64,000 nucleotides of DNA from the NCBI GenBank assembly GCA_002938205.1, contig PTKZ01000001.1, positions 1-64,000 of the forward strand, in the 5' to 3' direction. The translations under genes and the position numbers were made by a program. The stretch's first letter is position 1. Every line of letters starts with the position of its first letter. Origin of the DNA: Alphaproteobacteria bacterium MarineAlpha5_Bin5 (lineage in GTDB: Bacteria > Pseudomonadota > Alphaproteobacteria > HIMB59 > GCA-002718135). A model generated the notes under the pieces. It had not been told where the DNA came from and did no database searches. It worked only from the letters and a program-made list of their open reading frames with translations. Positions 5,518 to 23,235 of this stretch are shown one piece after another.

Positions 5518-5520
5518 ACA

Positions 5521-7290
5521 CTATACACTTAATACTCTTTCAAATTCTTCATACGAAATAATACCCTCAACAAGAAAATTCCTTCCCATTTCTTGCATAG
5601 TAATGAAATTTTCTTTTGCTGCTAATACTCTTATGTCAGTAGTTGTTTTATTTTGTAAAATGGCATTTTCTATACTGTCTGTGATTTCTAGCACTTCATA
5701 AATACCTTGTCTTCCTTTGTAGCCCGTTTTTTTACATTTAGCACAGCCTTTTCCTCTATATATTTTTGTGCGTGTTGCTTGTTCTGCTGAAAAGCCAATA
5801 GTGGTTAACAAATCTGCATTAACTTTAGGATCTTCTTCTTTACAATCATCACATATTTTACGAGCAAGCCTCTGTGCAATGATAAGACTTAAAGCTGCAG
5901 CTATAAGATAATTAGGAACCCCCATATTTACTAACCTTGAAATAGTATCTATTGCACTATTTGTATGTAAAGTACTTAAAACTAAGTGACCAGTTAATGC
6001 AGCTTTTATAGCAATTTCAGAGGTTTCTTTATCTCGAATTTCTCCAACTAAAACCACATCCGGATCTTGTCGTAAAAAAGAACGCAGTGCTGCTGCAAAA
6101 TCTAAACCTATAGAATCTTTCATTTGGGTTTGACCTATTCCTTGTAATTCATATTCTACAGGATCTTCAGCAGTTAATATATTTATATCCGGTTCATTTA
6201 TTTCACTTAAAGCTGAATAAAGAGTTGTTGTTTTTCCACTTCCTGTTGGTCCAGTAACTAATATCAAACCTTGAGGAGATGAAACGCCATCCATTAATAA
6301 TTTTAGTTCACGTGGAGGAAATCCTAATTTTTTCATATCAATATTAATTGAATCTTTTCGAAGTAAACGCATTACACATCTTTCTCCACGAACATTAGGT
6401 AGTATTGATAGTCTTATATCTACATCAATATTTTCACCTTCATTAATAAAACTTATTGCCCCATCTTGTGGAAGTCGATGTTCAGCGATATTTAATTCGG
6501 ACATGATTTTTAAACGTGTAATGACAGCAGGATAATTTGACTCTAAAAATTCTGTAAATTCTTTTTGTACTGTTAACACGCCGTCTTCTCTAAATCTAAC
6601 TTGCGCTAAGTCTCGAAATTTTTCTAAATGAATATCACTAGTACCAGAATGAAAAGATTTTATAATAATGTCATCTACAAAATCCTCAACATCAGATGAT
6701 ATTTCTTCATCTTCTTCAAGGGCAAAACCTTCATTTTGATCTCTTTTATACTGTGTTGTACTTGTTTTTTCTGAATCCCATTTTCTTGTTTTCTTTTTCT
6801 TTTTTGCTTCCTTATCAATTTGAGAAGTTGCTGGTTGTTTTGCGGCAAACCCAGACCATGCAAAAGCTTGAGACAAATTGCTAAAAGTTGTTACTGTGAA
6901 ATCAACTTGTAATTTAGTAAGTAGTTTTAAGTTAGCAGCAAGTGATATTGCTGCAGGGTCTATAATAGCTATACTTGCAAATCCTTTGTTAACTGCGTAT
7001 GGGAGCACTCTATTAGTTTTAATAAAATTTTCTGGAAGCAATTTTATTTGTTCTTGGTCAATAGTATCTTCAGTTAAATTAACTAAAGGAAGACCATAAT
7101 TATCAGCAATTACTTGTGCTATCTGTTCTTCATTTACTGAATTATTATCAAACAAAATATTCATGATATTTTTTCCTGAATTTGCACTACTTTTTTTTGC
7201 TTGTTCAAAAGTTTCTTGGTTAATTATATTTTTAGTAATTAGCAAATCACAAATACTAGTAGCGCTATTATTCGAAATCGTCAGACTCAT
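5521..7290 (-). CDS. mshE: Pilus assembly ATPase (PilB/MshE/GspE)
   Basis: A 589-residue hexameric secretion-ATPase family member that would drive pilus extension. The N-terminal part (about 10-125) matches an MshEN-type domain, which in relatives binds cyclic di-GMP. A charged linker rich in K/E/T follows (about 150-190). The motor has a Walker A GPTGSGKTT (about 343-351), an Asp box ending in DPVEYE, a Walker B DPDVVLVGEIRD and a His box TLHTN. Four cysteines (CDDC and CAKC, about 475-515) form the zinc site typical of GspE/PilB and absent from PilT. It sits between the secretin and platform genes. Whether the c-di-GMP-binding residues are all kept was not checked. Confidence 0.93.
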   Translation of the reverse strand: MSLTISNNSATSICDLLITKNIINQETFEQAKKSSANSGKNIMNILFDNNSVNEEQIAQVIADNYGLPLVNLTEDTIDQEQIKLLPENFIKTNRVLPYAVNKGFASIAIIDPAAISLAANLKLLTKLQVDFTVTTFSNLSQAFAWSGFAAKQPATSQIDKEAKKKKKTRKWDSEKTSTTQYKRDQNEGFALEEDEEISSDVEDFVDDIIIKSFHSGTSDIHLEKFRDLAQVRFREDGVLTVQKEFTEFLESNYPAVITRLKIMSELNIAEHRLPQDGAISFINEGENIDVDIRLSILPNVRGERCVMRLLRKDSINIDMKKLGFPPRELKLLMDGVSSPQGLILVTGPTGSGKTTTLYSALSEINEPDINILTAEDPVEYELQGIGQTQMKDSIGLDFAAALRSFLRQDPDVVLVGEIRDKETSEIAIKAALTGHLVLSTLHTNSAIDTISRLVNMGVPNYLIAAALSLIIAQRLARKICDDCKEEDPKVNADLLTTIGFSAEQATRTKIYRGKGCAKCKKTGYKGRQGIYEVLEITDSIENAILQNKTTTDIRVLAAKENFITMQEMGRNFLVEGIISYEEFERVLSV

Positions 7291-7309
7291 ATTATTTTAG
7301 TGTTTAATA

Positions 7310-8974
7310 CTATACAGTTTTAGGAGCAATAAAAATCAGCACCTGTTCTTGATTGTCGACTTTCGCATCAGAGCGGAATAACCTACCTATAACAGGAATA
7401 TCTCCCAGAATTGGTACTTTGCTCTCTGATTGAGATTCTGTATTAGAGAAAACTCCACCAATTACAACAACATCACCATCTCTTACAATTAAGTTCGTAT
7501 CAATTTCTAAAGTCGAAATAGGCGGATTTGCACCTGAGCCAGAAGGACTATTATTACTTACAGCAAGATTGATTTTAATATTACCATCACCAACAATTTG
7601 AGGTGTAACAGTAAGTTCAAGTGCTGCATCAACTAATTCAACACTAGCATCTTCACCTGCTCCTGTATATGCGATTTGTGTACCGCTCGTAATTTTTGCT
7701 TCTTGATTATCTAAAACAAATACTTTTGGATTATCAATTGTTTTTGTTAACCCTTCTGATTGCATTGTATAAATTTCTCCCTTTAATTGAGCAAATCCAA
7801 TATCTGCAATTATTCCTAATCCTAAAGTTGGATTAGCTATTGCAAAATCTGTTATTCTATCCTGATTATAAGAATCAGTATCCGCAGTAGTTGCAAACGA
7901 TTGAGTTTCTGCTAAACCTGAATTTGCTTGTCCAGGACCAGCTTGTGTTCCTCTTATATCACGAATTTTTTCATCACCATCAATTAAAGGAATATTTGCT
8001 GCCCCTCCTAATCTTGCTCCTAATTCCTCTTGAAAAGTATCAGTTGCTTTTACAATGATAGCTTCAATTAATACTTGTTCAACAGGTTGATCAACTTCAT
8101 TAATAATTTTTTCAACAAATGTTAAATCTTCCATCGTACCATTTGCTATAATAGTATTTTGACTTGGTTCAGACATTAACTTTAAAGAAGCAGAAGAAGA
8201 AGCGCCAACTTCACCTTCACCTGTTTGCACACCCATTAAAGCATCATTCAAACGTTTTAACATAGTTTCAGAATCTATATAATAGAGTTGAAATACAGCT
8301 GTTGATTTTGGTACAAGATTTGCTTGATAATCTAACTGCTCATTTAATGATTTTAATCGTTCTTCATCATAAGTTATTTGCTCTCTCAAAACATCTTTGC
8401 TATGAATTCTTATTATTCCTGTTTTATTATCAATTGCCCAAGTTAAGCCTTCAATATCTAAAATTGATTTTAAAGCAATTTTCCAAGGTATGTCTCTTAA
8501 TTCAATACTTAAGGTAGACTTAACTTCTTTACCTACTAAAATATTTCTATTTGTTATTTCTGAAAAAACCTGCATTACTTCTCTTATGTCAGTATTATTA
8601 AAACTTAAGGTTATAGGAAAACTATCATATAAATCAGTATTTAAACTAGCTAACATAGGTGAGCTTGGATCAGTAGTATTTATAATTTTTTTTCTATTTA
8701 GATTTAAGTTTTCTAGCGTTTCTTTACGCGTCGGACCAAATTGTGATAAATTTTTAACTTTTTCTTTTTGCTCATTAACTAATTGAGTGATCTGTTCGTT
8801 TGCTTGAATATTTTTTTCCTTTTCTATGCTTTCTTCAAATATAACTCGTGTATCTTTATCCCCTTCTTCTTTTTTTGGAACAGAATAAGGACCTGTACAA
8901 GATGCCAGTACTATTATTAATGCTAAAAAAATCATTAATAATTTAAATGTATTTATATTCAGATAAGCATACAT
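7310..8974 (-). CDS. mshL: Outer-membrane secretin lipoprotein (MshL/PilQ type)
   Basis: A 554-residue secretin forming the outer-membrane pore for the pilus. It has a lipoprotein signal with lipobox LASC (Cys26), N-domains (STN-like about 110-190, then a secretin-N domain with ANGTMEDLTFVEKIINEVDQ), and the C-terminal secretin core with EAIIVKATD and the hallmark VPILGDIPVIGRLFR near the end. The lipidated N terminus and short N region favour MshL over PilQ. It lies 6 bp downstream of the PilP-like gene and 19 bp upstream of the ATPase, so it is part of one operon. Confidence 0.92.
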   Translation of the reverse strand: MYAYLNINTFKLLMIFLALIIVLASCTGPYSVPKKEEGDKDTRVIFEESIEKEKNIQANEQITQLVNEQKEKVKNLSQFGPTRKETLENLNLNRKKIINTTDPSSPMLASLNTDLYDSFPITLSFNNTDIREVMQVFSEITNRNILVGKEVKSTLSIELRDIPWKIALKSILDIEGLTWAIDNKTGIIRIHSKDVLREQITYDEERLKSLNEQLDYQANLVPKSTAVFQLYYIDSETMLKRLNDALMGVQTGEGEVGASSSASLKLMSEPSQNTIIANGTMEDLTFVEKIINEVDQPVEQVLIEAIIVKATDTFQEELGARLGGAANIPLIDGDEKIRDIRGTQAGPGQANSGLAETQSFATTADTDSYNQDRITDFAIANPTLGLGIIADIGFAQLKGEIYTMQSEGLTKTIDNPKVFVLDNQEAKITSGTQIAYTGAGEDASVELVDAALELTVTPQIVGDGNIKINLAVSNNSPSGSGANPPISTLEIDTNLIVRDGDVVVIGGVFSNTESQSESKVPILGDIPVIGRLFRSDAKVDNQEQVLIFIAPKTV

Positions 8975-8980
8975 TTGATT

Positions 8981-10480
8981 TTAATCTTTCTCCTTCAACA
9001 TAGGTGTATAAATATAGCCTATTTCACCATCATCTAGACTTACTTTATACCAACCTTGGACATTATCTAACACTGAAACTTCAGCGTTTTGAAGCAAAAC
9101 TCCTATAATACTTGAATGCGGGCTAGGCTTTTCCCTAATATTAACATCTTCTTTTGCAATCATTATATTATCAGAATTTGTTTCGCCCACATTTGAATCA
9201 CTAGTTGTGGCATCGTCATTTTCAGTTACAGAAACAACGCCCTGTTCTTCAGTTGACTCTTCAGCAACATCATCATTATTATTTTCTGATTCTAATACAT
9301 TTGAATCACTAGTTGTGGCATCGTCATTTTCAGTTACAGAAACAACGCCCTGTTCTTCAGTTGACTCTTCAGCAACATCATCATTATTATTTTCTGATTC
9401 TAATACATTTGAATTTTGATCAATTAAATCATTTAATTTATTTTCTAAAACTTCAATTTGATTAACTTGTGAAGAAATTTTTTGAGCAGATTCTTTTAAA
9501 AGATTATTTTTTCTAGCTATTTCTTCATTTAAATTATTAATTATATTTTGAAGATTATCTAAATCTGCATCATTGTTATTTGTTGAAGTATCTGCGCTTG
9601 GCGACATATTGTGTAATTCTGAATCTACTAATTCTGTATTTAATCTATTAATTTCATCATCTTTTTCTTTTATTTTTTGTTCAAGATTAATAATATTTTT
9701 TTCTGCTTCTTGGAGCTTTGATGCATCATTATTGTTTGAAGAAATATTTTGTAATTCTTCTTGCAACTGATTAATATTTTCTTCCAATTGAGTTATATGC
9801 TGCTCTTGAACTTCTATTGTGTCTTGATAAGCTTCGCTTGAATTAGTTAAAAACTCTACTGTAACTAAAAGATTGAGATTTTCTTTTTTTAATTCCTCTA
9901 TCTTTGTTTCAGCAACATTCAGTTCGGAAACCGTTTCATCACTTGTACTTTCAATTTCTACCTCTCCTGAATCATTATCAGCAATTATCTCTTCCCCAGC
10001 TTCTTCAATCTCATCTGTAATTTTTTGTTCCACAATGTAAGGAACATAGCCAACTTGAAAGCGATAGATACCCTCATCATCTTCAAAAGTAATGACTCCT
10101 CTCTTATCAATGTCAGTCACATAAGCACAATTTAAACCTAAACAATCTTTAACAGACAATAAAAATTTTGTGTTTTCTTCAGATGAGACAAACATCATTC
10201 GAGTTTGATTCATAGATTTAATAACACCTTGTAAAGAATAACGAGTGATTGGGTAACGTGTATTAATTGGCTGATCTAATGCTACCTCTCCATTTGCAGA
10301 TGAGGAAGCTGAGTTTTGACTAAGAATAGGTTGATCTAATTGATCCGTTGTTGGAATGTCGTTATCAAAAGTAAAAATTGTATTATCAAAAGGATCAGCA
10401 GCCATTACTGACTTTGCTGTTAACAAAAAAAATAATAAAATAATTATTTTATGTTGGCTCATTTTATAAAATTCTATCAT
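8981..10480 (-). CDS. PilP/MshK-like pilus protein with coiled coil and C-terminal SH3 domain
   Basis: A 499-residue protein read as signal peptide (1-27, ending SVMAA), a PilP-like beta domain (about 65-150, with RYSLQGVIKSM), a long coiled coil (about 190-350, rich in E/K/N/L heptads), an acidic tandem repeat of two exact 36-residue units (about 359-430), and a bacterial SH3 domain (about 440-499, with DVNIREKPS and GWYKVS). PilP-type proteins link the inner-membrane PilN/PilO complex to the secretin, and its place between the PilO-like and secretin genes fits. Normal PilP is about 180 residues, so the coiled coil and peptidoglycan-type SH3 end are unusual. It overlaps the upstream gene by 4 bp. 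Confidence 0.7.
   Translation of the reverse strand: MIEFYKMSQHKIIILLFFLLTAKSVMAADPFDNTIFTFDNDIPTTDQLDQPILSQNSASSSANGEVALDQPINTRYPITRYSLQGVIKSMNQTRMMFVSSEENTKFLLSVKDCLGLNCAYVTDIDKRGVITFEDDEGIYRFQVGYVPYIVEQKITDEIEEAGEEIIADNDSGEVEIESTSDETVSELNVAETKIEELKKENLNLLVTVEFLTNSSEAYQDTIEVQEQHITQLEENINQLQEELQNISSNNNDASKLQEAEKNIINLEQKIKEKDDEINRLNTELVDSELHNMSPSADTSTNNNDADLDNLQNIINNLNEEIARKNNLLKESAQKISSQVNQIEVLENKLNDLIDQNSNVLESENNNDDVAEESTEEQGVVSVTENDDATTSDSNVLESENNNDDVAEESTEEQGVVSVTENDDATTSDSNVGETNSDNIMIAKEDVNIREKPSPHSSIIGVLLQNAEVSVLDNVQGWYKVSLDDGEIGYIYTPMLKEKD
9189..9404. repeat. 108-bp perfect tandem duplication inside the PilP-like gene
   Basis: Two adjacent 108-bp units (starting at the acatttgaat words near 9189 and 9297, with a third partial start near 9405) appear identical by eye. 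They encode two copies of a 36-residue acidic unit, so the copy number can change without breaking the frame. Confidence 0.88.
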
Positions 10481-11094
10481 CGTGTAGGCATTCTGACTAG
10501 AGATATTTTTACACTTGCAACTACAGTTCTTGATTCAGTAGTGCTTACCTCTTCTTTTTCAAATACAATTAATTTATCAAGTTCAGCTATTTCAGATTTT
10601 AGCTTCAAATAATCAGGAAATCTTCCTTCTATATCATATTCAACATAAATTTTATAATAGTCTACTGGAATACCTGAAACATCGCCACTAGAATCAGCAC
10701 TTTCTCTAATCGCTTCTTCTTCTCCACGAATTAATCTGTTTACTTTTAAGTTATTGCGAAGTGCAGAAAGACTTATGAGTTGATATAATTCTTCTACTTC
10801 TTTTTCTGATACAAATAATTTAAATTTTTCTTCACGTTCTAATTCTAATTCTTCAACTTTTGTAATCAAACTACTTATTTGATTATTCATACTTTCTATT
10901 TCTTGCAGTTTGTAATATTTATCTTGAATTAAAACTTCTTGCTCCTTGAAAGTTGGTCGAATTAAAAAGAAATAAATTATTAAAAAAATGAGAATTAAAC
11001 ATAGCGTTACAATCAAACCTAAATAATCTTTTATTGTCTTTGGCTCTGCGTTAGCATCTGCATTTTTTTTAGAAAATAAATTTTTTAGATCCAT
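10477..11094 (-). CDS. PilO/MshJ-like pilus alignment-complex protein
   Basis: A 205-residue bitopic inner-membrane protein: short cytoplasmic N terminus, one membrane helix (about 29-50, LIVTLCLILIFLIIYFFLI), a coiled coil (about 55-95), and an alpha/beta periplasmic domain. This is the PilO/GspM/MshJ layout and length. It would pair with the PilN-like half of the upstream fusion protein and the PilP-like protein downstream. It lies 5 bp after the fusion gene and overlaps the next by 4 bp. The call rests on topology and gene order more than on sequence motifs. Confidence 0.75.
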   Translation of the reverse strand: MDLKNLFSKKNADANAEPKTIKDYLGLIVTLCLILIFLIIYFFLIRPTFKEQEVLIQDKYYKLQEIESMNNQISSLITKVEELELEREEKFKLFVSEKEVEELYQLISLSALRNNLKVNRLIRGEEEAIRESADSSGDVSGIPVDYYKIYVEYDIEGRFPDYLKLKSEIAELDKLIVFEKEEVSTTESRTVVASVKISLVRMPTR

Positions 11095-11099
11095 CTTTA

Positions 11100-12866
11100 T
11101 TACTCTTCTGTTTCTTCAGGTATAATTTCATTAGCAATGACTGACACTTCGAATGATTTAACCTCAATAGTACTTTCCCCTTTAGTTAATTCAGTTACAT
11201 TCATATTAACTAAAGAAGCTTTCTCTACAGTGTCACGGGAATTTAAAGAATCTATCAATTCGATTATTGGACGATCATCCATTGACTGACCTTCTACAAC
11301 CAATGTGTTATAATCTTGTTCTGAGGTTTTAATGCTAACCAAAAGAACTTTTTTTGGAACAGCTTGAGTTATTTCTTTAAACATTAAATAACTACTTTTT
11401 GAATTTGATTTCAATTGTTGACCCTTCGATAGGTCATTTTCTAAATCTTTTTTTGCAGAAATAAGTTTTTGGAATTCAGCATTTGATTGTTCAAACTGTT
11501 GATTAACTATATCATAGTCTGCTAATTCTCTTTTGTTTTCAGAATATTTGCTAAATGCAAAAACTCCATAGACAACAATAATCAAAGAAATTAAGCCAGC
11601 TGCACCTATGTAAACAAATTTAGAATACATATCTGAACGCTTTTTCTTTTTTAAATTATCTCTATTAGGTAGTAGGTTGATGTTACGTACTCCAGTGACA
11701 AACTTAAAATAACCAAAAACATCTAGTCTTCTTGTTGCCAATCCAATAACAGCAGTAAACATTGACGGATTTTCCTCTGTGGTAACTTTTTCTTTAAGCT
11801 GTTCTGGAATTGTTAAAGTGTCAAAAGGAGAATGAATAGACATTTGGATATTTTCAAAACCCTTTTGTAATTCCTGCACAACGCCACTAATTGCAGGTAA
11901 AGGGGAGACAACACTTAGGCTGGTAATAGGTTCTGTTTTATACTGGTTTTCAAAACCTGCTAAAGCTTGCTTAATTTGAACAGTGAAGCGGTTTAAAACT
12001 TCTACAAGAAGTTGATCCATGTAACCTCCACCCATTGCAGCTGACATTGTTGCAAGTATTTCTTTGTCCTGAGGACGAATAAATATATCAACAACATAAG
12101 GAGTTTCTTCTTGAAGAATTAAAATAAAATTTTCTGATTCACTAATCTCTAGAATAGCTACAGGGCCTTTCTTTGCACCAAATGTTGGTTGACTTAAAAC
12201 TTGTGTTTCAAAAGCATTTCGTAAAGCAAAACAACGAACATCTACAATAACTGGTGATAAACCAGCCTGTCTAATGATATCTGCATAAAGATTTACATCA
12301 TCAATTTTAGAGGCAACAAATAGTACATCCATTATGTTGCTTTCTGTGTGTCTTTTAATTACTTGATGGAAGATTGAGTAATTTTCTAATGCATCAGGTA
12401 ACTGAGTTAAATTTTCCCACAGTGAATCAGTTGCAATTGCATTTTCTATTTCTTCATCCGTCATGACTGGCATCTGCAATACCCGAATGATAGCACTTGA
12501 GACTGGAAGGGCTATTGCTGCATTACTTGTATCTACTTTTGCGATTTGTAAAGCTGTTTGAATTTGTTCAACATAGATTTCTGGATTTGAGCGCAGCAGT
12601 TCTTCACTACCATTTTCAACATTGCGATAACTAAATTTTGTTAAGGTCCAACGGTCATTCTGCTCTTTAAGCTGTGAAACTTTAACTGAAGTAGGAGTCA
12701 CTTCTATCCCAACAACCTCTTCTTGTGAAGCACTATATTTACTTATAATATTGAAGAAAAAACGACTAATAGGAGAAAACAAACCGCCTCCACTTTTTTT
12801 TCCTCGTGTTGGAGCCTTTATTGTTTTCTTTTGCTTATCTTTTTTTTTGCCTAGTCCAAAAACCAT
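11100..12866 (-). CDS. PilM-PilN fusion (GspL-like) pilus alignment protein
   Basis: A 588-residue protein with a basic, Gly/Lys-rich N terminus, an actin-like PilM domain (about 50-380, starting VVGIEVTPTSVKVSQL), one membrane helix (about 415-437), then a coiled coil and a small periplasmic alpha/beta domain of PilN type (about 440-580, with IELIDSLNSRDTV). In classical type IVa pili PilM and PilN are separate; here they are one chain, as in GspL of type II secretion. It is the first gene of the leftward pilus operon, divergent from the PilT-like gene. It should link the cytoplasmic ATPase to the periplasmic complex. Confidence 0.82.
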   Translation of the reverse strand: MVFGLGKKKDKQKKTIKAPTRGKKSGGGLFSPISRFFFNIISKYSASQEEVVGIEVTPTSVKVSQLKEQNDRWTLTKFSYRNVENGSEELLRSNPEIYVEQIQTALQIAKVDTSNAAIALPVSSAIIRVLQMPVMTDEEIENAIATDSLWENLTQLPDALENYSIFHQVIKRHTESNIMDVLFVASKIDDVNLYADIIRQAGLSPVIVDVRCFALRNAFETQVLSQPTFGAKKGPVAILEISESENFILILQEETPYVVDIFIRPQDKEILATMSAAMGGGYMDQLLVEVLNRFTVQIKQALAGFENQYKTEPITSLSVVSPLPAISGVVQELQKGFENIQMSIHSPFDTLTIPEQLKEKVTTEENPSMFTAVIGLATRRLDVFGYFKFVTGVRNINLLPNRDNLKKKKRSDMYSKFVYIGAAGLISLIIVVYGVFAFSKYSENKRELADYDIVNQQFEQSNAEFQKLISAKKDLENDLSKGQQLKSNSKSSYLMFKEITQAVPKKVLLVSIKTSEQDYNTLVVEGQSMDDRPIIELIDSLNSRDTVEKASLVNMNVTELTKGESTIEVKSFEVSVIANEIIPEETEE

Positions 12867-13053: not shown

Positions 13054-14064
13054 ATGCCAGAAAACAAGGATATATTAATAGATCAATTAATAGAAAAATA
13101 TACTGAAAATCATAATTTGTCTGATCTGCATATTAGAAGTGATCAGCCTATGGCTATTCGTGAAAATGGAGAAATTATTACTTTTCCTGATGAAATTGTT
13201 TCAGGACACGATGTAAATAAATTTATTAAATCTCACCTTGATACTTATCACACTGAAAAATTAGAAAATGACATGCAACTAGATACAGCTATTGTTGTAA
13301 AGGGAGTTCGTTATAGAGCTAATATATATCATTCCTTAAATGGAAATTGTATTGTTTTGCGTAAAATTGAAACAATTATCCCAGTTGTTGAAGAATTAAA
13401 TATCCCACCTGCCGTTCTTGGTGCATGCGAATATAAAAATGGATTAATTTTAATTACAGGACCCACAGGATCAGGAAAATCTACCACCTCAGCTGCAATC
13501 CTAAATAGAATAAATTTAACCAGACAAGAAAATATTATTACCATAGAAGATCCAATTGAATTTATTCATATGAATCAAATGTGTATTGTTTCGCAAAGAG
13601 AAATTGGAAAACATGTTACAAGTTTTGGTAATGGATTACGGGCAGCATTAAGAGAAGATCCTGATATTATTTTACTTGGAGAAATGCGTGACTATGAAAC
13701 GGTTTCTGCAGCGCTAACGGCAGCAGAGACAGGACATTTAGTTTTGGGCACTTTGCATACCAATGGAGCACCAAATACTATTAATCGTTTAATAGATGTT
13801 TTTCCAGCTGCCCAACAGCCTCAAGCTCGTTCGATGCTTTCTCAATCTCTTCGTTTGGTTGTCACACAACAATTACATAAGAAAAAAGATGGCACTGGTA
13901 GAGTAGGAGCATATGAAGTTATGGTATGTAACAATGCCATTCAAAATTTAATTCGAGAAGATAAAGTTTTTCAAATACCTAGCATAATGCAAACTGCAAT
14001 GGCTGAAGGAATGATTACCATGGAAAAATCTGTAGAAAATTTAAGAGCTATGGGGCAAATTTAA
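13054..14064 (+). CDS. pilT: PilT/PilU-like pilus retraction ATPase
   Basis: A 336-residue secretion ATPase without the MshEN domain or zinc cysteines of the extension motor, which is the PilT/PilU pattern. Motifs are ASDLHIR-like SDLHIRSDQP near residue 20, Walker A GPTGSGKST (about 136-144), Asp box ITIEDPIEF, Walker B DPDIILLGEMRD and the His box TLHTNGA. It would depolymerise pili for twitching or DNA uptake. A good ribosome binding site precedes it, and it starts the rightward operon with the minor pseudopilins 11 bp downstream. PilT and PilU cannot be separated by reading alone. Confidence 0.9.
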   Translation: MPENKDILIDQLIEKYTENHNLSDLHIRSDQPMAIRENGEIITFPDEIVSGHDVNKFIKSHLDTYHTEKLENDMQLDTAIVVKGVRYRANIYHSLNGNCIVLRKIETIIPVVEELNIPPAVLGACEYKNGLILITGPTGSGKSTTSAAILNRINLTRQENIITIEDPIEFIHMNQMCIVSQREIGKHVTSFGNGLRAALREDPDIILLGEMRDYETVSAALTAAETGHLVLGTLHTNGAPNTINRLIDVFPAAQQPQARSMLSQSLRLVVTQQLHKKKDGTGRVGAYEVMVCNNAIQNLIREDKVFQIPSIMQTAMAEGMITMEKSVENLRAMGQI

Positions 14065-14075
14065 TTTAAGAATAA

Positions 14076-14699
14076 ATGAAAAACAAAAAAGGGTTTTCAT
14101 TAATTGAATTTTTAGTTGTTGTTGCTTTAATTGGGGTATTATCGATGTTTTTTTATACTCCAAAAACAACAAGGTGGAATAATGAAGTTGCAAGTGCGCA
14201 ATCTAAAATTGTAAGTTTGTTAAAATATTATCAAAAAAAATCAATGCGTGATGGTTATAAATATTATGTGAATCTTAAACTTAACACCGCACAAGAAACA
14301 TTTTCTATGGCAGCCTTTGTTGATAAAAATATCACGTCGCGGCAATCAGTTTGCACATCTAGTACAGATTCAAATTTTTCAGAAAGACGACTTTTTGATA
14401 CACTAAAAAACATTCGCGTGTTAGGATGTAAAAGCGGCGGCAAATCATGTAGAAATACAAGCTCTAATAATATGGGTATTTGTTTTTTTCCTAATGGATC
14501 ATCAGCAGCCGTAGATGATAGGAAAGAATGGTATATATTTCACTCTGCGGGAGATAATACAACTCATGCGAGGAATGCATATAAATTTGTAGTATGGAAA
14601 ACGACATCATTTATAGAAACTTCCACGTGTAGAGGAAATGCAACTTATGCTAATATATCTTCCAGAGCACTTAGTTGTTCAAAATGGATAGAAGAATGA
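14076..14699 (+). CDS. Minor pseudopilin, FimT/GspH-like
   Basis: A 207-residue type IV prepilin. The leader MKNKKG is followed by FSLIEFLVVVALIGVL: cleavage after Gly6, N-methyl Phe+1 and Glu+5, the full prepilin peptidase signature. The globular part has several cysteines (about 88-125 and near the C terminus). First in a run of four minor pilins ahead of PilY1, in the FimT/FimU-PilV-PilW-PilX order, it fits GspH/FimT. It would help prime assembly and carry the tip adhesin. Confidence 0.85.
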   Translation: MKNKKGFSLIEFLVVVALIGVLSMFFYTPKTTRWNNEVASAQSKIVSLLKYYQKKSMRDGYKYYVNLKLNTAQETFSMAAFVDKNITSRQSVCTSSTDSNFSERRLFDTLKNIRVLGCKSGGKSCRNTSSNNMGICFFPNGSSAAVDDRKEWYIFHSAGDNTTHARNAYKFVVWKTTSFIETSTCRGNATYANISSRALSCSKWIEE

Positions 14700-15220
14700 G
14701 AAAAAAAAATACTTTATATTCTAAAGGGGTATCTATTATTGAGGCTTTATTAGCTGCTGTGATTGTAGGGATTGGATTTATTTCTGTCTATACAATGACG
14801 ACAACGGCAACAAGAATGATCTATAGTGCATCACAAAGAGATAATGATACATTATCAACTGCTATGATCATGGATGATATGGCCCTGGATAATTTTTCTG
14901 TTGCTGATACTGCCTATCATGAATCAATTTCTTCAAGTAAGTACAACAATCTTGACTTAACAAAAGGATGTGGTGCTGCTCCTACTGGGTCACCAAAACA
15001 AAAAGATAGACAAAAAGTTCGATGGTGTAATTTTTTAAAACTTAAAAAAGGTGGAATGGGTGATGTAGGCACTGGTGATGTAAGGAAAATGTATGTACGA
15101 AAAATTACTATTACTGCAAATGGATATGCCCAAACATATAAAGTGATGGGACTTAGGGTTGAGCATAAATCAAAAAATAGAAATCAAAAAAAATATTATA
15201 GAAAAATTATTCATGAATAA
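14696..15220 (+). CDS. pilV: Minor pseudopilin, PilV-like
   Basis: About 174 residues from the ATG at 14696, which overlaps the previous stop as ATGA; the ORF track extends to 14675 but that adds only seven unlikely residues. The leader MRKKNTLYSKG is followed by VSIIEALLAAVIVGIGFI, with Glu+5 and a Val at +1 rather than Phe. The AxxxVGIGF helix and its position second in the minor-pilin run are typical of PilV/GspI. Translational coupling to its neighbour is likely. Confidence 0.82.
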   Translation: MRKKNTLYSKGVSIIEALLAAVIVGIGFISVYTMTTTATRMIYSASQRDNDTLSTAMIMDDMALDNFSVADTAYHESISSSKYNNLDLTKGCGAAPTGSPKQKDRQKVRWCNFLKLKKGGMGDVGTGDVRKMYVRKITITANGYAQTYKVMGLRVEHKSKNRNQKKYYRKIIHE

Positions 15221-16076
15221 AAATAATTTAAATAAAGGCTTCACACTGCCAGAAATTTTGGTTTCAACTGCAATTGGAGCTATCATCCTCGCTGCCCTCT
15301 TTGTCTCTTTTATTATGTTTCAACGATCCTATGAACTCCAAAGAGAAATGACACGTAATCAAGAAAATGGACGAATGACGCTTGATTTTATGGTGGAAGA
15401 AATTCGTAATGCTGGATACAGACATTTTAATAAAGGTAGCCCTGTACCAATTAATCAAGCAGTAATATTAGAATCACCTACGACCAATTCAAATCCTAGT
15501 GGGACACTTCCTCAAGATTGCGGTGAGAAAATTTCAGTCATGTATGACATTGTTCCAAATCAAAAAGATATGGGTACTTATAATTTCATAAGACGTATTG
15601 TAAAATACTATGGAGAACAATATTCCCCAGGAGGAGTGACGGCTTTATCTCGTTGTCGTTTAAAGCGTCATCAATGTCATTACGGATATGATAGTTCCAC
15701 AGGAAAATTTGCTCAAATTTCTACAGCTAAAGCTAAAGATTATCCGTGTGAAGAGGAAACAATTTTAGATTATTTATATGAACTAAGCTTCTCTTTTTCA
15801 GATTATAAATATGATCATTTTGCAGGACGACTTAATCCTCTCACAAGAGGAGCGAAATCTTCGTACAATTATGCAAATTCAGGGTGCATAAATGATTTCA
15901 AGAAAAACGTTGCTTGCGGACAATATTCTCCTCGAGCGCGTGCAATAGATATGCATTTAAGTATTGTATCAGGTAATGAAATTAGTAGCGTTCCCGATGA
16001 TCCCACCGATAATCCTGATAAGGGCAAACGTTTTTTAACTTATTATAATGCAACTATGGTGTTGCGTAACATATGA
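15213..16076 (+). CDS. pilW: Minor pseudopilin, PilW-like
   Basis: The preferred start is ATG 15213, which gives the short leader MNKNNLNKG before FTLPEILVSTAIGAII; the longer ORF from 15159 would add 18 residues ahead of it. The overlap with the previous gene is then 8 bp (ATGAATAA). The mature protein is about 280 residues, with a cysteine-containing C-terminal domain, the size of PilW/GspJ. It is the third minor pilin ahead of PilY1. Confidence 0.82.
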   Translation: MNKNNLNKGFTLPEILVSTAIGAIILAALFVSFIMFQRSYELQREMTRNQENGRMTLDFMVEEIRNAGYRHFNKGSPVPINQAVILESPTTNSNPSGTLPQDCGEKISVMYDIVPNQKDMGTYNFIRRIVKYYGEQYSPGGVTALSRCRLKRHQCHYGYDSSTGKFAQISTAKAKDYPCEEETILDYLYELSFSFSDYKYDHFAGRLNPLTRGAKSSYNYANSGCINDFKKNVACGQYSPRARAIDMHLSIVSGNEISSVPDDPTDNPDKGKRFLTYYNATMVLRNI

Positions 16077-16816
16077 TACATATGAATAAAACACAAAGAG
16101 GCTTTGCTCTTGTTATTTCTTTATTATTATTATTAATGATGACGGTGATGGGTATCACCATGATTGCTCGATCGAATTTAAACACCAACATGTCCGTTGA
16201 ATATGATAAGTCAGAACATATTTTTATTGCTGCTGAGGCAGGCATAGAGCATGCAAGACGGTATTTAGAAAATATGTCTTCAAAGAACCAATATCCTGGC
16301 AATAACAAAGGTCCTTTAACTGCAACACCTGCAAATAGATGTTTAGCAGATTATAAAGATGGACAAGGATCGCCCTATGATACACTAGGGAAAGATAGTG
16401 GAAAATATGCGTATACGTTTCCAGCCCAGCAAACAAATGGAGTAGTCTTAAATACTCAAATGTCATGTAAAAATTTAAATTCTGGACAAAATGATAAAAA
16501 TTTTAGACGTATGGATTGTGAGTTTGATTTAGATAATGATGCAACCTCTAATCAAAATGAAAGAAACTTTTTTAAAACATTTGGATTTAGTTACTATATT
16601 TTTTATGAAGGAGAATCGAGTACTGCAGGAGGGTCTGGTTCCTCAGGTGTGGGAACAGTTGGGACATCAAGTCAATATGCAGCAAGCAAACAAGATTCAG
16701 CATATTATTATCAAGTGATATCCTGCGGGGCTTCATTTGCTTGGGATGGGAAAAGTCAAAATGCCACTCTAAAACAAATTCAATCTCTGGAAGCAAGAAT
16801 AAAGCTAGAGAAATAG
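16073..16816 (+). CDS. pilX: Minor pseudopilin, PilX-like
   Basis: A 247-residue protein with N terminus MNKTQRG followed by FALVISLLLLLMMTVMGITM. It lacks the usual Glu+5, having a hydrophobic residue there, as PilX and GspK do. The helix continues into AAEAGIEHARRYL, the common PilX pattern. The start overlaps the previous stop as ATGA (16073), with an alternative ATG at 16082 giving a tighter leader. It is the fourth minor pilin; PilX-type subunits sit near the tip and bind PilY1. Confidence 0.82.
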   Translation: MIHMNKTQRGFALVISLLLLLMMTVMGITMIARSNLNTNMSVEYDKSEHIFIAAEAGIEHARRYLENMSSKNQYPGNNKGPLTATPANRCLADYKDGQGSPYDTLGKDSGKYAYTFPAQQTNGVVLNTQMSCKNLNSGQNDKNFRRMDCEFDLDNDATSNQNERNFFKTFGFSYYIFYEGESSTAGGSGSSGVGTVGTSSQYAASKQDSAYYYQVISCGASFAWDGKSQNATLKQIQSLEARIKLEK

Positions 16817-16900: not shown

Positions 16901-17467
16901 ATGAAGTGGTGTATCCTTATATTTATCATCATATTTACAAACCCGCTTTTAGCAAAGTGCAAAATTGACACGCATGCATTTGGCACTTCTGCTAAAACAA
17001 TTCAACAATCGTTAAAAGATACATGGATTACTTCTGAGCCCATTCCTGGTGTTAATAAAACAGTTGGAACTAGTTTAGAATTAATATGCCCAGAGCTTAA
17101 AGGCTCTTCATTAGGAATGGAGACAATGTTTATCTATAATTTTATTAAAGATAAATTAGTTGCCATTGAACTAGTGTTACAAACAACGGATAAGCTTGAG
17201 TTGTTTGAATGGGGAAGACAATATTTTGGTATTATGGAAGAGCGTGATTTAGCTAAAGCGGAACAAGTTATACGCGTAGAAGATGGTAACCGCATTATCC
17301 AGTTATTTGTTGGTGTATTGCCTGATGTGACGTTTCAAAATGTTGTATTAATTTCAACAAAACATGATGATCTTTTTGAGTATCAATTTCAACAAGAAGA
17401 TAATATGAACTGGGATACAAATGAAATATCTCCATTAGAACCAATTACTCTTGGAGAGGAGAACTAA
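16901..17467 (+). CDS. Exported protein of unknown family between pilX and pilY1
   Basis: A 188-residue protein with a signal peptide (1-18, ending NPLLA) followed by a Cys-containing mature domain of mixed strands and helices (GTSLELICPELKGSS, LQTTDKLELFEWGRQYFG). No prepilin motif is present, so it is not the missing PilE-type pilin. It starts 84 bp after pilX and its stop overlaps the pilY1 start (TAATG), implying coupled translation. By position it may be a periplasmic partner or chaperone of PilY1; I do not recognise the family. Confidence 0.75.
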   Translation: MKWCILIFIIIFTNPLLAKCKIDTHAFGTSAKTIQQSLKDTWITSEPIPGVNKTVGTSLELICPELKGSSLGMETMFIYNFIKDKLVAIELVLQTTDKLELFEWGRQYFGIMEERDLAKAEQVIRVEDGNRIIQLFVGVLPDVTFQNVVLISTKHDDLFEYQFQQEDNMNWDTNEISPLEPITLGEEN

Positions 17468-20400
17468 TGCGCTCTATTCTCATCCCTCTCATAACTGGAG
17501 TACTACTCTCTTTTCCTATTTTGGCTAAAGGACCCCCTCCTGGAACAGGAGTAGGAGATGTAAAGGCCAACATCATGATTATGCTGGATGATTCAGGGAG
17601 TATGAGTGCCAGAGATCCTGCGCCAGGAATGTCTCATTGCACTTATGCTGTGGATGTTGCTAATAATGGTGACATATTTACAGCAGACCCTTGCTATCAC
17701 AAAGTTACCCGCCTTGATTCTGCTTATAAAGTTAAATCAACATTCGGTGGATCATATAATTGGTATAGCAATGTAAATGGTATCGCAGCCTATTACCAAC
17801 CTTGGTCCCTTGCATTGGATCAAGCGGACAGTACCGATGAGTATGTTTTCGTAGGCCGCTATCATGCAAGAGGAGCTGGAAGTTTTGGATCAAGCTCAAG
17901 ATATAGCACAATCCTTAAAGTGTGCACAGGTATCACCACAACAGCTGCCTGTCCGAAAGCTGGAACACTTGTCGCCGTTAACGACAAACAAAACAATCAA
18001 TACTATTCTATGGGTTTGGCCGTCCAAGGAAACTATGTTTACAGCCTATCCCATCCACATATGCATATTCAAAAATACAATAAATCTGATTTAAGTTTTG
18101 TTACAAGTAGAACTAACATAAGGCAACAGGATTTTAATAACCGTTTTAACTACAGATATGATGCCATTGCAGCTGTAGGGGACTATGTTTATGTTTCAAA
18201 TTATAGAATTAGAAAAATTTGCCGCTATAATGCGTCTAATTTAAGCAATGCTAATTTTTCAAATGGACAACATTGCATTACTTCGCCTAATTATCAATGG
18301 AGAGGGCTAGCTGCTTCAGGGAAAACAACCACATCAACGGCTGATGATTTTTTATATACATGGACTCATAGAAATTCTCAAGGAACGATCCATAAATTTA
18401 ATGCAAATTCCGGTGCCTTTGTTACGCGTTTTGCTCGAAGAGGTACCTCCACTGGACAAACCTATCATATCTATAGAGGAATAGGGGTTGATCCAAGTGG
18501 CAATGTATATGTTCCTGAGGCGGGATACTCTAACAGAACATGGGTCTCTAAATTTACTAGTGCAGGTACATATGTATCACGGGGACCCAAATCAGCAAAT
18601 CAAGGCAACAGGATGAAAATAGCTCATACGGCTATTCGTGCTATCTTAAAGGACCCTGATTTAACGGCGGGGGCCAATTTTGGCATTATGTCTTGGGGAT
18701 CAAAGTTTGTCATTCGCACTAAAATTTCTCCAAAAGGAGCAAATCAAATCTTAAATAAAACGCTACGGAAAATTTATCCAAGGGGCGGTACATATTTAGG
18801 AAGAGCAATTCAGCATGTGCGAACACGATATTGGCATAAATCAGGTGAAACACCAATAGATCTTGGGGCAAAATGTCAGGGCAATTTTAATTTAGTCATT
18901 AGTGATGGGGCATACTGGGGAAGCCCGACGCCTGAACAGGAAATACCTAAATTAAGCAAACACTCCACAATGCCGGTTAAAACATTTATTGTTGGTCTTG
19001 GAAATTCTATTTATGGATATTCAAAATATACCACACTTGCTTCTTCAAAGTACGGGGATACAACTCCACCAGGCCCTCTATTTGCTAATAATGTTACAAC
19101 ATTAACCCAGCAATTACGCTCTGCTATTTTAGCAGCCATTAACGGTAATTTGACATTTACATCGCCAAAGGTTGATTTTAGCTCGACGCCAAATGGGTAT
19201 ATATGTCAACCGTCCTTTAAATATAAAGAGGCTGATCAATGGCAAGGACTGCTTACACGTTATGAAATTAAACAGGATGGTAGTATTGATGATCCAACAG
19301 GACAAGATCCTAATAAAACAATTCGTTTCCATAAAAAACTGGATGGTCGTTCCTCTTTAGTCACTAACTCAAACGGGCGAAAAGTATGGACTGTTGATCA
19401 GGATATTGAAAACCCAACATCAGGTGTTTATAAAAATAATAATTTTGATCCCGAGTATTCTACGGGCAGTCAAAATTTAGTAGATGCAAGCACGTATAAT
19501 CTCATGACGGGTGGGGATACTTTACTAGGAAAACGTGATGTTGCGCGTATCATGCGGTTTATGCGCGGACAAGATATGTTTGATCAAGATTCAGATTGTA
19601 AAAATATTAAAGCGATAAACTTTAATAATAAATGTTATACAGAAGATAAAGGCAGTACTGATGCGCCTTTACTTTATAAACTCCATGATTTGTATAACTC
19701 CGTTCCAGCCTATGTGGGTCCTCCTACAGCTCTAGCTTCTCCGGATATCAAAAATACGGAGAACGAATATCGATATCAAAATAATTATGCAGCTTTTAAA
19801 AACAAACATAAAAATAGAAAGAATGCTTTAATCATAGGATCCAATGGAGGCATGATTCATGCTTTTGATAATGGATGCAAAACAGCAAATGCTACCTGTA
19901 CAACCGCATCTAATCCAGGTTCTGAGTTATGGGCTTTTGTACCGCCTTCTATTATCCAAAACTTTAAATATATTGTTACCCCTCAAAAATACACAAAGCT
20001 TGATGCAGATGTAGGTACTAGTGATACAACTCTTACTGTTAATAGTACTTCAAATTTCTCTAGCTCGGGGGAAATACGTATTAACAATGAGTTCATGCGC
20101 TATACAGGTAAAACATCTACAACCTTTACCGGTGTCACAAGAGGATATGATTGTTCAAGCAACGCACCATTCTGTGATGATGCAACTGCACATTCATCAG
20201 ATGATATTGTCTATAATGAAACAACGGTCAGAAAACCTGAATATTCTGTATTTGGTGTAGATGGTCCTATTGTGGCAAAAGATATTTATACAGATGGAAA
20301 CTGGAAAACAATTGCAATCGCAGGCTATGGTAAGGGAGGACGCGGTTTAACTGCTCTTAATATTACTAATCCTGATAATCCTGTTCATATGTTTAGCATT

Positions 20401-21990
20401 CTTAATGAAATTCAGGGACCTGGTTTATCTAGAGCCATTAAACTTTGGCAAACGACGTACAATACAAGTTCAAAAGTGTATGAAACAAAACTAACTGATT
20501 ATAGCTATAGTATGAACGTTGAGACAACAACTCTAGCAGCAGCTGTTAGTGCCACTGAAACAGCAACAATACCCGTTAGTGATGCAAGTAAATTTGCAAG
20601 TGCCGGATATATAACGGTGACTAACAGCGATGGAAATAATGAAGTTATTTATTACGGGAGTAAAAGCGGAAATAATCTTAAAAGTTTAATCCGCTCCGAA
20701 GATACCAGCGGTAATTCTAATGCTATTGCTCTTGAATCAGGAGCAGCCGTATCACAAGATTCTTCATGCACCGTTGCTGCAACAAATGTACCAGCTGAAT
20801 ACGATTATACCCGTTTAGGATTAACCACGTCGATGCCACAAATTCTTAATTTGAAAATTAGTGGTAAGAAAAAATGGGTAGCTGTTTTTGGTGCTGGTCA
20901 AAATTATGGTAAAGATTGTACTACAGGTAATGCTGTCTATGTAATGGATTTAGAAGATAGTCCGGGAGAGATTATAAAACAAATCGTTATTCCAGATGAT
21001 CCAAATAACTCTATATATAATACTGTTAATGCTAATGTTGCTATAGTGCAAAGAGACGGTACCACAAAAGCTGATTATTACGGAGCTATTGCCTACGTAG
21101 CGGATTTGGAAAATAAATTATGGAAGATTGATTTAACAGATAAAGCAGGCTCGCAATTTGGTCGTAAAGTGAAATTATTTGAAGATGTTGCAACCGATGA
21201 TAATGGTCGCCGCAATTACCAAGAAATTTTACCAGTTCTCGATTCAAGCCAAAATGTTCAGATGGGTGGCTCTAAGATTGAGAGTAATATTTTACGGTTA
21301 TACTGGGGAACTGGTGATATGGATAATTTGGCAGACCGATCTAATAAAATAGTTAATCGTCTCTATGGTATCTCTGACCTAACATTTACAAATTTTGGTA
21401 TAACGTGGCAGCCAGCGGATGATGTAAGTAATAAAAGTGCTCTATATCGATTAGCGGATTGTTATAATTCTACATCTCTAGCTTCTGCAACATGTCCTGT
21501 GCTCTCCAATGTGGGAACAAAAAATATTGGATGGTATATTACTTTACCTAAGCAACGCAAAACAACAGGAAGAAGACCGCTATATGATAAAGAGCAAGTT
21601 TATTTTGTTGTGTATGAACCAACAACGAAATTGTGTAGCCCTGGGGATGCTATTTTAGGAACGTATGGCTATATGTGTCCTAATTATAAAAGATTAGTGG
21701 TGGCATTAGGGGCAGGTGTTGCAACCGGTGCGACTACACAGGGTAGTCAAATATATATTGGTGTCTCCAATGCTGGCACGACAGGAACATATAAAAGAGG
21801 AGATATACTGGAGCAAAAAGGATCAGGATTTGGCGTTTCAGGTTCAGCTGCTGCTATTGCGAAAGATGTGAAAGATAATACTAAAGGAACAGATAGCATT
21901 ATTGTTCTATCGCCAGTAGGCACAGCATCCACAGGTAAGAGTTCAATTGATGCATGGCGTCATTATACTGGTGAAAATTACTTTGATTAA
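17467..21990 (+). CDS. pilY1: PilY1-like pilus tip adhesin with split VWA domain
   Basis: A 1507-residue exported protein with a signal peptide (1-20). A von Willebrand A domain opens with the MIDAS motif DDSGSMS (about 41-47), but some 330 residues of propeller-like repeats (GIGVDPSGNVYVPEAGY, NGDIFTADPC) follow before the VWA resumes at RMKIAHTAIRAILKDP (about 381) and FGIMSWGS. The C-terminal half has the PilY1 beta-propeller (ALIIGSNGGMIHAFDNG, LWAFVPPSII, VYVMDLEDS). Two similar small domains sit in propeller loops (about 840-890 and 1018-1085). Many cysteines suggest oxidative folding. PilY1 proteins act as tip adhesins, mechanosensors and assembly primers. The gene is the last of the minor-pilin operon. 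Confidence 0.9.
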   Translation: MRSILIPLITGVLLSFPILAKGPPPGTGVGDVKANIMIMLDDSGSMSARDPAPGMSHCTYAVDVANNGDIFTADPCYHKVTRLDSAYKVKSTFGGSYNWYSNVNGIAAYYQPWSLALDQADSTDEYVFVGRYHARGAGSFGSSSRYSTILKVCTGITTTAACPKAGTLVAVNDKQNNQYYSMGLAVQGNYVYSLSHPHMHIQKYNKSDLSFVTSRTNIRQQDFNNRFNYRYDAIAAVGDYVYVSNYRIRKICRYNASNLSNANFSNGQHCITSPNYQWRGLAASGKTTTSTADDFLYTWTHRNSQGTIHKFNANSGAFVTRFARRGTSTGQTYHIYRGIGVDPSGNVYVPEAGYSNRTWVSKFTSAGTYVSRGPKSANQGNRMKIAHTAIRAILKDPDLTAGANFGIMSWGSKFVIRTKISPKGANQILNKTLRKIYPRGGTYLGRAIQHVRTRYWHKSGETPIDLGAKCQGNFNLVISDGAYWGSPTPEQEIPKLSKHSTMPVKTFIVGLGNSIYGYSKYTTLASSKYGDTTPPGPLFANNVTTLTQQLRSAILAAINGNLTFTSPKVDFSSTPNGYICQPSFKYKEADQWQGLLTRYEIKQDGSIDDPTGQDPNKTIRFHKKLDGRSSLVTNSNGRKVWTVDQDIENPTSGVYKNNNFDPEYSTGSQNLVDASTYNLMTGGDTLLGKRDVARIMRFMRGQDMFDQDSDCKNIKAINFNNKCYTEDKGSTDAPLLYKLHDLYNSVPAYVGPPTALASPDIKNTENEYRYQNNYAAFKNKHKNRKNALIIGSNGGMIHAFDNGCKTANATCTTASNPGSELWAFVPPSIIQNFKYIVTPQKYTKLDADVGTSDTTLTVNSTSNFSSSGEIRINNEFMRYTGKTSTTFTGVTRGYDCSSNAPFCDDATAHSSDDIVYNETTVRKPEYSVFGVDGPIVAKDIYTDGNWKTIAIAGYGKGGRGLTALNITNPDNPVHMFSILNEIQGPGLSRAIKLWQTTYNTSSKVYETKLTDYSYSMNVETTTLAAAVSATETATIPVSDASKFASAGYITVTNSDGNNEVIYYGSKSGNNLKSLIRSEDTSGNSNAIALESGAAVSQDSSCTVAATNVPAEYDYTRLGLTTSMPQILNLKISGKKKWVAVFGAGQNYGKDCTTGNAVYVMDLEDSPGEIIKQIVIPDDPNNSIYNTVNANVAIVQRDGTTKADYYGAIAYVADLENKLWKIDLTDKAGSQFGRKVKLFEDVATDDNGRRNYQEILPVLDSSQNVQMGGSKIESNILRLYWGTGDMDNLADRSNKIVNRLYGISDLTFTNFGITWQPADDVSNKSALYRLADCYNSTSLASATCPVLSNVGTKNIGWYITLPKQRKTTGRRPLYDKEQVYFVVYEPTTKLCSPGDAILGTYGYMCPNYKRLVVALGAGVATGATTQGSQIYIGVSNAGTTGTYKRGDILEQKGSGFGVSGSAAAIAKDVKDNTKGTDSIIVLSPVGTASTGKSSIDAWRHYTGENYFD

Positions 21991-22425: not shown

Positions 22426-23235
22426 TTATGTCAAATATATAGACTGTAAATAGTGTATTAGTATTTTTTCGGTATAATTAATTAATGGTAATCCTAGAAA
22501 TATATAAATTAAAGTTGCTATAATTATATAAGGTCCAAAGGGTAATTGTGACTGAAAGTTTTTATTTTTACTAATTAAAATTATACTACCTATTATTACC
22601 CCGCTTAATGATGATACAATTAAAATAAACATAATGCCTTTAATCCCAAATAAAAAACCAAGAACGACGAATAGTTTTAAATCACCTAATCCCATACCTT
22701 CTATTTTTCTCACATATTGGTAAAAAACAATTAAGCCTCCTATGAACAGAAAGGCTATAAGGGCACCAAGTGCAGAAGGATATAAGGATGCAAAAATACT
22801 ATCTAGATTAGGTAGAAATAATTTTCCTAAAGCTAAAATACCAATAAGTAGAACTAGTGAATCAGGAATAATTAAATGTTTTAGATCAATAAAAAAGATT
22901 ACTATAAATACAGGAATAAGAATTAAAAAGTAAACTAGATTTATACTTAAGCCATATTTCCATCCAAAAAATAAAAAAAATAAAGCAGTCGATAATTCTA
23001 CAATAAAATATCGTATTGTTATTTTATTTTGACAAAAAACACATTGGCCTCTTAAATATAAATAAGAAAATAAAGGAATATTATAATAAAAAGGAATAGG
23101 GGTTTTACAACTTGGACAATGTGATTTAGGTAAAATAATACTCTGCTGAATCGGGAGACGATATATGCAGACATTGGAAAAACTTCCTACCGCTAATCCC
23201 AACAAAAAATACACCGTTAGTTCAAATATTTGCAT
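22426..23235 (-). CDS. pilD: Prepilin peptidase / N-methyltransferase (PilD)
   Basis: A 269-residue polytopic membrane protein. The N-terminal methyltransferase part starts with GLAVGSFSNVCIYRLP and holds two CxxC pairs (CPSCKTP and CVFCQNK). The two aspartates of the A24 peptidase site lie in FIDLKHLIIPDS and GMGLGDLKLF (GxGD). About eight hydrophobic segments follow the family topology. It would cut and methylate all six prepilins in this window. Downstream is the short bactofilin gene. Confidence 0.95.
   Translation of the reverse strand: MQIFELTVYFLLGLAVGSFSNVCIYRLPIQQSIILPKSHCPSCKTPIPFYYNIPLFSYLYLRGQCVFCQNKITIRYFIVELSTALFFLFFGWKYGLSINLVYFLILIPVFIVIFFIDLKHLIIPDSLVLLIGILALGKLFLPNLDSIFASLYPSALGALIAFLFIGGLIVFYQYVRKIEGMGLGDLKLFVVLGFLFGIKGIMFILIVSSLSGVIIGSIILISKNKNFQSQLPFGPYIIIATLIYIFLGLPLINYTEKILIHYLQSIYLT

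Follow-up and report, generated by a model that had tools for sequence, protein, structure and literature searches.

Analysis of the window, the whole 64,000-nucleotide stretch of DNA examined here, indicated that the product of the pilY1 gene has its VWA domain split between strand 1, which bears the MIDAS motif, and helix 1, and that the intervening residues are predicted to form a six-bladed beta-propeller of the NHL type. According to the models, this PilY1 would carry two propellers, the usual C-terminal one and a second on the MIDAS side of the VWA domain. The propeller insert is general in SAR11-type PilY1 proteins and is not unique to the window. Insertions in PilY1 VWA domains are themselves already known; the new part is the NHL propeller at this site and its generality in SAR11-type pili.

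The pilY1 gene and its pilus cluster

The listed reading frame 17467-21990 (+ strand, 1507 aa) runs without a stop from a signal-peptide-like N-terminus through the C-terminal PilY1 part, and its product consists of a signal peptide, the split VWA domain with the NHL-type propeller insert, a linker, and the C-terminal PilY1 propeller. In a phmmer search, residues 929-1147 matched the C-terminal domain of Pseudomonas aeruginosa PilY1 (PDB 3hx6) with an E value of 4.5e-7; the PF05567 match was sub-threshold, with 20.8 bits only against a cut-off of 28.1. The structure model of a relative, L035, also matched 3hx6 in Foldseek (E 8.3e-14).

The gene closes a row of minor pilin genes, with type IV pilus machinery genes identified nearby by Pfam. 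Upstream on the + strand are a PilX-like minor pilin gene (16073-16816; PilX_N, E 1.7e-6), minor pilin genes (14076-16076) with N-methylation motifs at 14076-14699 and 15159-16076 (Pfam N_methyl), and a retraction ATPase gene (13054-14064; T2SSE, E 3.3e-48), for which the name PilT/PilU was inferred from length and sequence. The region 4261-12866 (- strand) comprises pilC, pilB, the secretin gene pilQ, two genes named pilP and pilO from position only, and a pilM-pilN fusion (Pfam T2SSF, T2SSE with MshEN, Secretin, and PilM_2 with PilN), and the prepilin peptidase gene pilD lies at 22426-23235 (- strand; A24_N_bact and Peptidase_A24). The 3hx6 match and this context indicate that the product is a PilY1 encoded within a complete type IV pilus cluster, as the first-pass annotation had named it.

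Immediately upstream of pilY1, 16901-17467 encodes a 188-aa protein with a signal peptide, which gave no Pfam match and is kept in genome G034; it is a possible candidate for a PilY1 partner. An autotransporter of 1136 aa, which combines bacterial Ig-like repeats with a beta-barrel domain, is encoded at 318-3728 (- strand) and adjoins the pilus cluster. In a SAR11 study of 2025, an autotransporter adhesin gene was described as always adjoining type IV pilus and/or type II secretion genes (PMC12636525).

The VWA domain is split after the MIDAS strand

In the uncut protein, Pfam alone marked VWA_2 only at residues 379-459, as might be seen if the first DxSGS motif were coincidental and a normal continuous VWA domain lay downstream. 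However, this match corresponds to profile positions 17-93, and because it begins at position 17, residues 379-459 lack both the first strand and the MIDAS loop. When residues 28-47 were joined in silico to residue 379 onward, VWA_2 was matched over positions 1-93 with 47.5 bits (E 3.1e-12), and PF00092 was also matched, over positions 1-142. The second half alone gave 27.4 bits, with VWA_2 starting from position 19 and no PF00092 match; rejoining the halves restored profile positions 1-16 and added 20 bits. Joined halves of the relatives L035 and L017 likewise gave VWA matches from position 1. In a further SAR11-family protein, L161, the two halves were reported by Pfam separately, VWA_2 positions 1-18 at residues 40-57 and VWA positions 62-169 at residues 482-597.

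Strand 1 and the MIDAS loop occupy residues 34-47 (17566-17607, +), with DDSGS at 41-45, and a strand was placed there by AF2. The VWA remainder, delimited by the Pfam match, helix and strand order and residue invariance, occupies residues 381-562 (18607-19152, +) and contains the MIDAS residues T442 (18790-18792) and D480 (18904-18906). The complete pentad, D41, S43, S45, T442, and D480, was invariant in 30/30 aligned relatives. Among 40 further SAR11-family proteins, DxSxS was retained in 39, the remaining one having D-x-T-x-S (DRTYS). By DSSP, the order of strands and helices was VWA-like (Rossmann-like fold) in two AF2 models, those of the window protein and L035.

The joined-halves match, the separate halves of L161, and the invariance of the MIDAS residues together indicate that the VWA domain is interrupted between strand 1 and helix 1. 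By analogy to known PilY1s, the MIDAS would be expected to bind a divalent metal. A continuous downstream VWA domain with a MIDAS of its own was looked for and was absent; no second strand-1/DxSxS motif was found directly ahead of residue 381, and the split reading stands because no such motif starts the downstream part. Together with the restored first strand and the invariant DxSGS, this leaves a coincidental motif so improbable that it can be set aside.

The insert is predicted to be an NHL-type propeller

The insert comprises residues 48-380 (17608-18606, +). An AF2 model was produced for window residues 22-606 from 30 aligned sequences, and it displayed a strand at 34-41, approximately 23 strands over 61-373, helix 1 at 382-394, and then the remaining VWA elements. 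The model was moderately confident (pLDDT 71), with blade 2 poorly predicted (about 45-55). Foldseek searching with the window insert returned NHL propellers (Thin, TRIM71, and Brat), the best with an E value of 2.9e-12 and a probability of 1.00. In the full-length model of L035 (pLDDT 82.4), the insert had 24 strands forming six blades of four, and NHL propellers were matched with an E value of 1.8e-15.

Pfam NHL (PF01436) was detected in 28 of the 30 alignment members. The window protein itself had no Pfam NHL match and gave SBBP only (E 0.067); an insert HMM built without this protein and its sister found the window insert with an E value of 1e-8. The window insert is a divergent member of the NHL-insert group. 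The first-pass annotation had described a VWA domain split right after the MIDAS strand by an NHL-like insert at residues 48-378, with the VWA fold resuming near residue 381; the profile matches and models bear this out, and the boundaries are correct within a few residues.

Linker and C-terminal propeller

The VWA domain is followed by a linker, residues 563-785 (19153-19821, +), with its boundary taken from the alignments and the L035 model, and by the C-terminal PilY1 propeller, residues about 786-1507 (19822-21987, +), assigned from the alignment and the 3hx6 matches of the window protein and the L035 model. In known PilY1s, the C-terminal propeller belongs to the pilus-priming part and governs extension and retraction. 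In the lineage of the window, this propeller contains two small beta-rich insertions (20008-20235 and 20554-20781), which are missing in G094/L005. They look similar by eye; BLASTP gave no match between them, and homology of the two was rejected.

Comparison with other PilY1s

For comparison, 398 Pseudomonadota genomes were surveyed, 116 of which had PF05567, and 80 PilY1s were taken. In 34 of them, positions could be assigned to the MIDAS strand as well as to helix 1, by a simple pattern and HMM placement on which the lengths rest; the gap between the two was 133-368 residues in 28 and 5-21 residues in the other 6. Because 28 of the 34 have 133-368 residues there, the strand 1-helix 1 site is a usual insertion place in PilY1. 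Of the earlier interpretation, the PilY1 assignment, the split VWA domain, and the NHL-like insert stood, and what failed was the claimed contrast with PilY1 VWA domains that are normally continuous. Work on Acinetobacter ComC had already concluded in general that the VWA domains of PilY1 proteins have lineage-specific insertions (PMC10374093).

The insert HMM matched none of the 80 other Pseudomonadota PilY1s, and Pfam NHL was found in none of 33 N-terminal parts of other PilY1s; the possibility that the insert is an ordinary part of the PilY1 VWA domain was therefore rejected. Two deltaproteobacterial PilY1-like proteins (L049 and L050) have a different insert at the same site, beta-sandwich-like by eye. 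In a tree built on the shared part (676 columns, insert columns excluded), all 64 insert-bearing rows fell on one side of a branch with SH-aLRT 100, a distribution that a single gain could explain.

In other PilY1 lineages, this site holds unrelated inserts of 133-368 aa, which suggests that bulk may outweigh identity. Such inserts would suit a structural spacer or stabiliser, an insert that gives the tip more bulk and lets PilY1 plug the secretin or clear the envelope, with its sequence drifting because little is demanded of it. Maintenance of the six-blade fold across very divergent proteins argues against such a spacer, and the pattern of variation described below also bears on it.

A myxobacterial PilY1 survey of 2026 does not mention NHL or insertions (PMC13190605). 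In the open-access literature, we came across no description of an entire NHL propeller in the VWA domain of a pilus-tip adhesin and none on PilY1 architecture in SAR11.

Distribution in SAR11-type bacteria

SAR11 bacteria are the most abundant bacteria in the ocean. A single-pass contig scan with two short peptide patterns yielded 36 loci, most of them titled Pelagibacteraceae or Pelagibacter; the patterns came from the alignment of insert-bearing members, and the family-wide search described below is less biased. Of these loci, 31 were readable at the A[ND]FG[LI]M[ES]W motif as well as at the MIDAS strand, and all 31 close relatives had a large insert (265-361 aa) at the same site, after the MIDAS strand. 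One locus (L022) is titled Dehalococcoidia, yet its nearest sequences are marine alphaproteobacterial and it may have been misbinned; besides the PilY1 fragment, its MAG (G847) encodes numerous NHL-like proteins of about 340 aa. Another (L029, from G094) shares 75% identity with L035, and its contig may belong to another organism in that bin.

Prevalence was drawn from the SAR11 family of genome G842, because the order of G123 holds only six genomes in the set used. The PilY1 alignment was matched in 69 of 297 genomes of this family, a few of the matches being weak, and with incomplete genomes these prevalence figures are lower bounds. The MIDAS strand was present in 40/40 further proteins of the family, and an insert of 267-469 aa was present in 30/30 of those in which helix 1 could be placed by pattern. 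With E below 1e-3, the insert HMM recognized 29 of the 40; the other 11 have diverged too far for assignment, and most of them belong to the longest class (about 1600 aa). By length, the PilY1s of this family (L160-L162, L168-L187) group at about 1250-1310, 1370-1410, and 1470-1710 aa, and the propeller-like inserts become more divergent across these classes. In one genome (G893), pilY1 is present twice.

In the genus of the window, PilY1 was found in 2 genomes only, the window genome and one other. A clear secretin match was found in 1 of 61 genomes of the genus, the window genome, many of the 61 being incomplete and some 80-90% complete. The pilus system in this genus may be an island that was gained or has been widely lost.

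Sequence variation of the insert

Among 26 proteins, the insert had a mean pairwise identity of 0.33, compared with 0.55 each in the VWA remainder and the C-terminal propeller and 0.56 in the linker. Between L035 and L030, the VWA remainder and C-terminal propeller were 0.93 and 0.92 identical, and the insert 0.57. The insert is the fastest-evolving large domain of PilY1 here. Within the blades, mean entropy was highest in the B-C loops (2.28) and D-A loops (2.20), the outer strand was also among the most variable elements, and the A-B turns varied least (1.10). This concentration in the B-C and D-A loops, not the A-B turns, also goes against a passive spacer, for which we consider the evidence on both sides to leave a low probability; since the NHL consensus lies in the A-B turn, part of this pattern would be seen in any NHL domain.

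A recent exchange of entire heads among lineages was considered and rejected for want of a clear sign, because identities of insert and core correlate (0.83-0.84). Faster evolution of the insert fits recognition, as a part in contact with the surroundings would be expected to change quickly; alternatively, it can reflect relaxed constraint. The sensing of a surface or ligand by the insert, as suggested in the first-pass annotation, would be plausible, and the faster evolution does not in itself imply signalling.

Proposed role of the inserted propeller

On balance, the inserted propeller is probably a variable head that meets the outside, either binding directly or capping the MIDAS, with the VWA domain and C-terminal part as the anchor. 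This proposal is based on the architecture, the intact MIDAS residues, the pilus gene context, the one-sided tree distribution, and the faster evolution of the insert. The variable propeller would project from the metal-site loop, and the conserved parts presumably hold the protein in the pilus. The propeller could bind a particle, polymer or cell surface directly and be tethered to the retractable pilus by the conserved VWA domain and C-terminal part; alternatively, it could cap the MIDAS and set what reaches the metal site. Location at the pilus tip and ligand binding are carried over by analogy from known PilY1s.

Besides the spacer, the main rival of a recognition head is a regulatory lid, in which the insert would block the MIDAS at rest and swing off under pulling force or ligand, leaving the VWA domain as the adhesive surface. 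The insert leaves from the MIDAS-forming loop itself and the pentad is invariant, as a lid would have it, and the VWA domain of P. aeruginosa PilY1 has been linked to mechanosensing (PMC8806160, PMC11891296). For a lid alone, however, faster evolution than in the domain beneath it would not be required, and we regard this explanation as unlikely, if by a hair less so than the spacer.

The protein has partial parallels in known systems. P. aeruginosa PilY1 shares the C-terminal propeller, a VWA domain with DxSxS...T...D, and the minor-pilin neighbourhood, but an NHL propeller in its VWA domain has not been described. Acinetobacter ComC, of the PilY1 family, also has a lineage-specific module within the VWA domain of a pilus-tip adhesin, and deletion of this finger-like insertion affected adhesion, twitching, and DNA uptake (PMC10374093); this Tyr-rich beta finger comes from another lineage and has about 90 residues (166-256 deleted), unlike the 300-residue propeller found here. 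Thin, TRIM71, Brat, and the sensor domain of Mycobacterium tuberculosis PknD share the six-bladed fold and gave the best Foldseek and profile matches; these NHL propellers are separate domains, whereas that of the window is inserted in a VWA domain. Integrin alpha subunits with an inserted I (VWA) domain also combine a VWA domain and a beta-propeller by insertion in an adhesive head, in mirror image, the VWA domain being set into the propeller, and no homology is claimed. In Streptococcus sanguinis PilB, an adhesive VWA module is grafted onto a type IV pilus part (PMC8179133), but this protein is a modular pilin rather than a PilY1 and is without a propeller insert.

For SAR11-type bacteria as a whole, we suggest tentatively, and with some doubt, that the fast-evolving NHL propeller, attached at the metal-site loop of the VWA domain of PilY1, may provide a retractable pilus with a recognition head at its tip. 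If so, these planktonic cells would gain a means of selectively capturing particles, polymers, DNA or neighbours, and with a defined, fast-evolving tip module, the ligands of these pili would become directly testable.
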